NCBI RefSeq assembly: GCF_041435015.1
Contig: NZ_CP107989.1
Location: forward strand, 7,750,001 to 7,814,000
Direction of reading: 5' to 3'
Source of the DNA: Streptomyces canus
Lineage (GTDB): Bacteria > Actinomycetota > Actinomycetes > Streptomycetales > Streptomycetaceae
DNA length: 64,000 nucleotides
Shown: positions 19,425 to 19,820 of the stretch, piece by piece
How positions within the stretch are numbered: the first letter of the stretch is position 1
Layout: each line of letters starts with the position of its first letter
The notes under the pieces: model-generated
What the model saw: the letters and a program-made list of their open reading frames with translations, nothing else
Database searches by the model: none
Told to the model about the DNA's origin: nothing
Translations under genes and position numbers: made by a program

Positions 19425-19453
19425 TCGCCAGTCCCGCGGCCCCCTCCTAAAGT
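19425..19453 (+). promoter_or_regulatory. Predicted promoter of the first Y-RNA-like element
   Basis: TCGCCA (19425-19430) and TAAAGT (19448-19453) are separated by 17 bp. The start predicted 7 nt after the -10 falls at 19460, exactly where the outer stem of the RNA element begins. That agreement supports both the promoter and the RNA 5' end. Confidence 0.5.
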
Positions 19454-19459
19454 GATGTA

Positions 19460-19598
19460 TGTCCAGGTGCGAAGGCAGGACCTACTTCCACTCTTAATGG
19501 GGAGGCCGCGGGTTCGAATCCCGCCACCGGTACCACGTGCCGGTGTAGCTCAGAGGCAGAGCACCTAATGTCGGTTCCGCCGATCTGAACTCTGGACA
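19460..19598 (+). ncRNA. Y-RNA-like element 1: permuted class I tRNA body on a Ro60-type stem
   Basis: In order: outer stem TGTCCAG (19460-19466) with CTGGACA (19592-19598); internal loop; second stem GGCAGGACC (19474-19482) with GGTTCCGCC (19573-19581), one A-C mismatch; anticodon-stem-like ATGGGG (19497-19502) with CCTAAT (19564-19569), one G-A mismatch; 5-nt variable loop; T-arm GCGGG-TTCGAAT-CCCGC (19508-19524); 7-bp acceptor CACCGGT (19525-19531) with GCCGGTG (19539-19545) closed by ACCACGT; TA; D-arm GCTC-AGAGGCA-GAGC (19548-19562). Every spacing equals a normal class I tRNA, but the 3' half precedes the 5' half. It lies upstream of a Ro60 gene, as bacterial Y RNAs do; those are known tRNA mimics. 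Function as a Ro60 tether or gate is inferred. Confidence 0.72.
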
Positions 19599-19613
19599 CC
19601 ACAACTTCATGCA

Positions 19614-19645
19614 CCTCCCGGTGCGAGCACTTTGATCTCGGGAGG
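19614..19645 (+). other. Hairpin between the two Y-RNA-like elements
   Basis: CCTCCCG (19614-19620) and CGGGAGG (19639-19645) form a perfect 7-bp stem, extendable by two G-C pairs after an A-C mismatch. The loop begins GTGCGAGCAC and ends GATCT. The flanking pattern C-C-C-G-GTGCG...GATCT-CGGG resembles the internal-loop region of both Y-RNA-like elements, so it may be a relic or minimal Ro60-binding stem. Alternatively it terminates element 1; there is no U-run. Confidence 0.4.
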
Positions 19646-19658
19646 CGCAGCTCATGGT

Positions 19659-19820
19659 GGGTGCCCGGTGCGCAGGCAGCGGATACTTCGGGAACTGGTG
19701 GGGGGAAAGCCCTCGTGCGGGTTCGAATCCCGTCATCGACCCAGGGTCGATGTGGCGGAACGGAAGACGCGCCAGTTTATAAGCACCGCAGTCGACTTCG
19801 ACCTCGGGCACCCTCCTTTT
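19659..19820 (+). ncRNA. Y-RNA-like element 2: permuted class II (tRNA-Leu-like) body on a Ro60-type stem
   Basis: In order: outer stem GGGTGCCCG (19659-19667) with CGGGCACCC (19805-19813), followed by TCCTTTT; second stem GGCAGCGG (19675-19682) with CCGCAGTC (19786-19793), one A-A mismatch and one G-U pair; anticodon-stem-like AACTGG (19693-19698) with CCAGTT (19772-19777); long variable arm GGGGG-AAA-GCCCTC; T-arm GCGGG-TTCGAAT-CCCGT (19717-19733); acceptor CATCGAC (19734-19740) with GTCGATG (19746-19752) closed by CCAGG; TG; D-arm GCG...CGC (19755-19770). The D-arm and variable arm are of tRNA-Leu type. The 5' strand motif GGTGCGCAGGCAG is shared with element 1. The stem plus U-run can act as its own terminator before the Ro60 gene. 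Confidence 0.75.

Follow-up and report, generated by a model that had tools for sequence, protein, structure and literature searches.

The Ro60 locus and its probable Y RNA array

The window, i.e. the whole stretch of 64,000 nucleotides from Streptomyces canus that was analysed here, carries a gene for a Ro60/Rsr protein, which is 98% identical to its counterpart in Streptomyces canus DSM 40017. The gene is preceded by an array of three RNA elements and by a promoter-like motif, and all these features lie on the plus strand between positions 19444 and 21446 (Table 1). The last unit of the array ends 52 nt upstream of the Ro60 start codon. The sequence-only reading had recognized two Y RNAs at this site, and both elements are real and lie where it had placed them; three frames are present, since a reduced, module-free element between the two had been missed.

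Table 1. Coordinates of the Ro60 gene, the upstream elements and their structural parts in the window
Feature	Position	Strand	Description and basis
Promoter-like motif CTCCTAAAGT, candidate -10 region	19444..19453	+	Precedes the whole array; motif match
E1	19461..19599	+	Very likely Y RNA; predicted to hold a whole class I tRNA in circularly permuted order (29-72, then 1-28)
E1 anticodon arm	19488..19502	+	Stem 29-31 CCA, loop CTCTTAA (19491-19497), stem 39-43 TGGGG; RNAalifold consensus of 40 rows
E1 T-arm GCGGG/CCCGC	19508..19524	+	Arm parsing, E1 alignment
E1 acceptor stem CACCGGT/GCCGGTG with 7-nt loop ACCACGT	19525..19545	+	Arm parsing, E1 alignment
E1 D-arm, A26, and C27'-C28' able to pair with G43-G42	19548..19565	+	27'-43 and 28'-42 covariation in relatives
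Reduced third Y element	19612..19645	+	Outer frame stem CCTCCCG..CGGGAGG, no tRNA module; TACTTC part missing
E2	19659..19813	+	Very likely Y RNA; class II core of tRNA-Leu type in permuted order, open at the anticodon loop
E2 outer frame stem, 5' strand	19659..19667	+	Pairs with 19805-19813; 98.0% of cells paired, double changes at 2/9 pairs
E2 anticodon stem, 39-43 side	19693..19698	+	Pairs with 19772-19777; 93.3% paired, double changes at 4/6 pairs
E2 variable arm (class II)	19701..19714	+	99.2% paired, double changes at 5/5 pairs; gap in 6 to 10 of 33 rows
E2 T-arm and acceptor stem, loop CCAGG	19717..19752	+	Acceptor: double changes at 3/7 pairs
E2 D-arm, tRNA-Leu-like	19755..19770	+	Leu best match in 33/34 class II elements
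Ro60/Rsr gene, TROVE domain protein, 526 aa	19866..21446	+	PF05731, E 2.1e-11, 44.1 bits, cut-off 23

The motif CTCCTANRG begins 17-18 nt upstream of E1 in 40 of the 55 E1-bearing Streptomyces loci, and 27-29 nt upstream of the middle element in 21 of the 26 Streptomyces loci without E1. It may be considered a promoter-like motif, a candidate -10 region. Since the units of the window are only about 12-16 nt apart, the array is likely to be transcribed as one RNA, which would then be processed into several RNAs.

Recognition of the elements by model searches

The presence of two permuted-tRNA elements beside the Ro60 gene was confirmed. When the whole genome was searched with the covariance model R2, trained without the window row, three matches with E<=1 were obtained among the 150 best of 10,140 first-look candidates: E2 (93.2 bits, E 7.7e-18), E1 (70.9 bits, E 1.4e-12) and the point where two tandem tRNA-Asn genes adjoin (48.7 bits, E 2.3e-7). 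The genes of this tRNA-Asn pair (G000:C1:6843834-6843985, L149) lie a few nt apart, and their junction imitates a permuted tRNA core. E1 scored 158.3 bits with R1, a model trained on the window row and 39 other E1 rows, and E2 scored 183.8 bits with R3, in which the window row is likewise included.

Rfam at the gathering threshold gave no match in the window, and no tRNA was called there by ARAGORN. In a permissive search the Rfam YrlA model (RF02553) reached 36.0 bits on E1 against a gathering score of 69, E2 was absent from its matches at E<=5, and the gathering score was attained in none of the 197 genomes of the class. The tandem tRNA-Asn junction of the same genome obtained 39.3 bits with this model, i.e. 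more than E1, hence the YrlA score was rejected as a proof of E1 membership. Single-sequence folding of the two elements was only moderately better than that of shuffled sequences (z -2.91 and -2.47).

It is extremely improbable that the elements are chance products or tRNA pseudogenes beside Ro60. The tRNA-Asn junction, with its scores in both models, does demonstrate that the permuted order can be mimicked, but the common frame, the constant position, the compensatory changes and the covariation of tertiary pairs described below argue against such an origin.

Structure and covariation of E2

Three alignments were used, comprising 40 of the 55 E1 elements (A1), 40 of the 43 class I E2 elements (A2) and 33 of the 34 class II E2 elements (A3). 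E2 of the window consists of an anticodon stem that is left open (AACTGG/CCAGTT), a variable arm of 5 bp, a T-arm, a 7-bp acceptor stem and a Leu-like D-arm. In the class II alignment 97.3% of the cells are paired (91.6% in shuffled and 38-46% in slid alignments) and double changes occur at 15 of 42 pairs; the corresponding values of the class I alignment are 97.0% (94.3% shuffled, 25-47% slid) and 8 of 37 pairs. The outer stem is paired in 98.0% (class II) and 98.9% (class I) of its cells, double changes included. The stems of E2 are therefore maintained by compensatory changes in both classes, and the earlier description of E2 as class II and tRNA-Leu-like proved to be right: Leu is the best match in 33 of 34 elements and the variable arm covaries at 5 of 5 pairs.

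These stems also bear on another possible role of the array. The units might constitute the leader of the Ro60 mRNA, so that Ro60 would bind its own 5' UTR and regulate itself, the free Y RNAs being by-products or absent. The arrangement in the window (short distance to the start codon on the same strand, closely spaced units, a single promoter-like motif) suits this explanation, as does the distance from the last TACTTC to Ro60, which is mostly 150-180 nt in relatives. We find it unlikely, however, since every E2 is closed by its own covarying outer stem, as fits a separate RNA, and known bacterial Y RNAs are RNAs of 90-150 nt according to PMC8394870. The common frame, the permuted tRNA core and the constant place before Ro60 make it very likely that E1 and E2 are the Y RNAs belonging to this Ro60, as had been proposed.

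E1 as a probable complete permuted tRNA

The class I spacing reported earlier for E1 (7-bp acceptor stem, 4-bp D-stem, 5-nt variable loop, 5-bp T-stem) was found again, with a TA link, a 7-nt loop on the D-stem and A26. The view that E1 is a three-armed mimic like E2 had to be abandoned: upstream of the variable loop RNAalifold predicts a hairpin TTCCA-loop-TGGGG, a closed anticodon arm with a 7-nt loop, which covaries in other actinobacteria. Judged from the sequences, E1 is a complete four-armed class I tRNA, including the 7-nt anticodon loop, opened between positions 28 and 29. Likewise, the idea that the RNA ends continue from the anticodon stem holds for E2 but not for E1, whose ends emerge from a nick within that stem. 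After re-joining in tRNA order the window E1 was called by ARAGORN as a tRNA-Lys(ctt) of 75 nt.

Within Streptomyces E1 is strongly conserved. The mean column identity is 92%, the sequence of the anticodon stem is invariant, and the outer stem is paired in 40 of 40 rows and never varies. Only 1 of 35 pairs is changed on both sides; it is in relatives outside the genus that the geometry and compensatory changes of the anticodon stem are seen.

The sample from outside Streptomyces comprised 82 loci, 12 from a TROVE search and 70 from R1 matches in one family. Elements were chosen solely by the frame motif and the T, acceptor and D arms, which yielded 118 elements at 68 loci. All five anticodon-stem pairs could be formed with exactly the geometry of a tRNA (7-nt loop, variable loop of 4 or 5 nt) in 66 of the 118, a share that is inflated because 70 of the 82 loci came through R1, whose structure includes the anticodon hairpin. 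The complete-tRNA units are also carried by L157, L158 and L159, which were found by the TROVE search. The variable loop was 4 nt long in 25 and 5 nt long in 41 of the 66 elements. With 54 other geometries at most 13 of the 118 elements had 5/5 pairs in any one. In Streptomyces 53 of 133 elements had 5/5 pairs, all with a 5-nt variable loop and a single stem sequence (best other geometry: 18), while the anticodon stem is represented by 17 different sequence pairs outside the genus. The compensatory changes expected for E1 were thus observed in other actinobacteria.

The anticodon loop of the 66 elements has T33 in 64, a purine at position 37 in 63 and A38 in 63 cases. The entropy of positions 34-36 is near-maximal, and 27 anticodons occur.

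For the remaining comparisons elements were selected by the three upper (upstream) anticodon pairs, the loop length and T33, so that of these pairs it is their variety alone that can serve as evidence. Among 69 distinct elements the pair 27'-43 is Watson-Crick in 66 (shuffled 54.5) and 28'-42 in 64 (shuffled 28.4), and the next possible pair gives no signal (5 versus 4.2 after shuffling), which places the opening of the tRNA between positions 28 and 29. At the Levitt pair 15-48, G-C or A-T occurs in 74 of 76 elements (shuffled 40.6); T8 is found in 76, A14 in 75 and A58 in 76 of the 76. These conserved features support a tRNA fold across the permuted strands. The loop is identical to a tRNA loop of the window's genome in 45 of 76 elements (column-shuffled mean 14.9, maximum 27), and 15 of 41 distinct loops are identical to real tRNA loops (mean 6.0; 0 of 5000 shuffles as high). 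The tRNA 36-37 rule is obeyed by 62 of 76 loops (shuffled 40.0) and by 30 of 41 distinct ones. It should be taken into account that the shuffles for the two stem pairs, the Levitt pair, the loop identity and the 36-37 rule treat related elements as independent.

ARAGORN recognized a tRNA in all modules re-joined at 28/29 (76/76 outside Streptomyces and 54/54 in Streptomyces, 130/130 altogether), with no calls in native order or after shuffling. Since modules re-joined 4 nt off were still mostly accepted (66/76 and 50/54), the program does not locate the joint.

Two features of the Streptomyces E1 loops were considered and set aside. The loop with U36, A38 (53/53) and A37 (49/53) had suggested a t6A-specific form, which was dropped as position 36 is free in other actinobacteria; 4 of the 53 loops have no purine at 37. 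The identity of Streptomyces E1 loops with real tRNA loops was not counted as evidence: of the 8 possible CT-S34-N35-TAA loops, 7 occur in tRNAs of this genome. In addition, CCA is seen in some E1 acceptor loops and may be a fossil 3' end.

That the units are permuted tRNA genes processed into working tRNAs is very improbable, even if the re-joined modules resemble complete tRNAs, many of them with real anticodon loops. The acceptor loops are often just 3-5 nt long (TTCG among them), E2 and the module-free units cannot yield a tRNA, and the genome already has 69 ordinary tRNA matches.

The E1-type units might instead serve as decoys for anticodon nucleases or anticodon-modifying enzymes, with the variable anticodons reflecting an arms race. 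Such a role would agree with the kept loop architecture and variable positions 34-36, with the adherence to the 36-37 rule and with the finding that Ro60 genes with such units also occur in tRNA clusters of actinophages; moreover, a role of the YrlA tRNA-like domain as competitive inhibitor is suggested in PMC7790460. The same source states that cleavage of Salmonella YrlA was not detected. The variety of anticodons could reflect which tRNA was captured, and neither E2 nor the module-free units possess an anticodon loop; the decoy role therefore appears possible but doubtful.

Distribution of the units at Ro60 loci

The Streptomyces sample contained 81 Ro60 loci, i.e. 80 named records and the window. 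A motif search combined with a parser, in which five labels were assigned manually, recorded E1 at 55 and E2 at 77 of them, as did R1, in the training of which 40 of the 55 E1 had been used. Both E1 and E2 are present at L031, a locus recorded under S. violaceoruber. In the middle, module-free unit TACTTC is present at 60 loci and missing at 18, and no frame was found at 3; two of the 18 (L006 and L023) are of full length with TCCTTC. Four Streptomyces loci (L059, L068, L023, L052) have E1 and a module-free unit and no E2.

Outside Streptomyces a Ro60 gene follows downstream on the same strand at 65 of the 68 loci with parsed elements, and at the other 3 no Ro60 was found within the stretch examined. 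As to the 14 loci without parsed elements, Ro60 is present at nine, and five have neither. The arrays comprise up to four units (L157, L158, L159). Compared by eye with tRNAs, the modules in other actinobacteria have Glu-, Gln- or Ser/Tyr-like D-arms, consist of a T-arm only, or are lacking. A further unit type (L157 377-488, L158 2704-2815, L184 1651-1762), with the T-arm directly after TACTT and no anticodon arm, has a GCCC..GGGC D-arm.

Similar units were encountered on phages and on a plasmid. An E1-type Y RNA (R1 102.1 bits, loop CTTCTAA) stands upstream of the phage Ro60 in Gordonia phage VanLee (L256 2204-2341), where its 5' part coincides with a publicly annotated tRNA-Arg(tct) (2204-2275). 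In Streptomyces phage Alone3 (L255 2270-2415) a Y-type unit with an anticodon-like loop CTGCTAA (R1 31.1 bits) is situated upstream of Ro60 and is overlapped by an annotated tRNA-Ser(gct) (2274-2347). These two phage records thus seem to label such units as tRNAs, and the units of the window are missed by Rfam at the gathering score and by ARAGORN. The Ro60 gene lies inside a tRNA gene cluster in the Streptomyces phages BRock, Alone3 and pSt2308 and in Arthrobacter phage Atuin (L254, L255, L257, L259). A Rhodococcus rhodochrous plasmid (L258 2011-2449) carries Y-type units upstream of Ro60, one of them with the anticodon arm TTCGA-CTGTTAA-TCGAG.

Exchange of the tRNA modules

While the Ro60-type frame is constant, the tRNA module has been exchanged repeatedly. 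At the E2 position of the 81 Streptomyces loci a class I core stands in 43 cases, a Leu-like class II core in 34 and none in 4, and the two never occur together. Parsimony on the Ro60 gene tree (a quick tree, in which 23 of 78 forks are weak) requires 17 changes of E2 class, compared with a mean of 25.5 and a minimum of 18 in 1000 shuffles, and both classes are contained in 6 disjoint clades with support of at least 95. In the close pairs L010/L022, L039/L043 and L037/L045 the flanks, which are not free of differences, are much more alike than the cores; L022 has extra bases upstream of Ro60. This difference between flanks and cores fits a local replacement of the core, from another Y RNA or from a tRNA gene; an allele with flanks of similar sequence may also have been imported.

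The sources of the modules differ in clarity. Beside the Leu-like class II cores, L017 and L019 are clearly Arg(ACG)-like (scores of 100 and 95 with tRNA-Arg(ACG) versus 68 with any other). The best matches of the class I E2 elements are His in 18, Asn in 13, Arg in 10 and Pro in 1 (n=42), those of E1 His in 39, Met in 12 and Thr in 4 (n=55), and no clear source tRNA emerges for these two groups. The earlier suggestion of separate tRNA origins, as opposed to simple duplication, is supported by the consistent Leu match of class II and by the interchange of class I and class II cores in close relatives. Tandem tRNA genes are a plausible origin of the permuted order, since the 3' half of one gene and the 5' half of the next form a permuted core; they would provide a simple source for it.

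Proposed role of the array

We consider it probable that the array is the Y RNA array of the downstream Ro60, made up of Ro60-type stems which bear circularly permuted tRNA modules that are replaced over time. Each unit would be a stem with the frame GGTGCG.AGGC..TACTTC / CCG..GCCG..CTCGG, which carries the tRNA-derived module and would be bound by Ro60. E1 would expose the elbow, the acceptor arm and the anticodon loop together, and E2 would present a class II tRNA of Leu type that is open at the anticodon loop and whose anticodon stem passes into the outer stem. As has been suggested for YrlA, the module would act as a tRNA-shaped handle, by which tRNA-binding proteins are recruited or competed for and the Ro60 ring is gated. 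Modules would decay in the course of time and then be replaced by conversion from other Y RNAs or tRNA genes. More tentatively, the actinobacterial Ro60 might display, on a constant frame, exchangeable whole permuted tRNAs whose anticodon loops are intact and diverse in isotype and which are replaced again and again from the tRNA pool; they would be bait for enzymes that recognize both the tRNA body and the anticodon loop, such as anticodon nucleases or modifying enzymes.

A Y RNA with a whole tRNA makes the purpose of tRNA mimicry testable, since the loop and the elbow can be mutated separately. Furthermore, the constant frame with swapped modules offers a natural experiment on the origin of Y RNAs from tRNAs.

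Comparison with known systems

Transfer-messenger RNA and its permuted form share with these units a tRNA-like domain within a larger RNA, and weak T-arm matches were found here, but the two models gave 20.6 and 14.5 bits, far below the gathering score of 47. The circularly permuted tRNA genes of algae and archaea likewise begin with the 3' part of the tRNA and have the 5' part behind it. The units described here differ from those genes in being opened inside the anticodon stem, in their very short acceptor loops and in the Y-type end stem.

A functional likeness may exist to the Deinococcus Y RNA/Rsr/PNPase complex (RYPER), where, according to PMC8394870 and PMC7790460, the Y RNA tethers the Ro60 protein to a partner. 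In PMC8394870 YrlA is described as an RNA with a long stem formed by its ends and with a tRNA-like domain that resembles the D, T and acceptor arms; it serves as a substrate for DusA and TruB and links Rsr to PNPase. PMC7790460 suggests that an anticodon nuclease may be inhibited by the tRNA-like domain, and it reports no fragments derived from YrlA. PMC9569102 speaks of yrlA in mycobacteria only as a predicted ncRNA. Our literature search found no report of a Y RNA with a complete tRNA; the primary YrlA papers were outside this search, which does not establish absence from print.

The closest likeness is that to YrlA (RF02553), with which the units share the place beside Ro60/Rsr, the permuted T- and D-arms with a loop-closed acceptor and the long stem between the 5' and 3' ends (PMC8394870). 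The architecture of YrlA itself is seen in E2 with a class I core, where the strands of the anticodon stem run into the outer stem. As described in PMC8394870 and in the Rfam model, YrlA mimics the tRNA body without an anticodon arm: ahead of the T-arm the Rfam consensus shows no hairpin, and hence no such arm, whereas E1 has one. Class II and other cores and arrays with module exchange distinguish the present system from YrlA as well. E1 and E2 are accordingly very likely to be variant members of the YrlA kind of Y RNA, E1 and the class II form being variants of the YrlA architecture.
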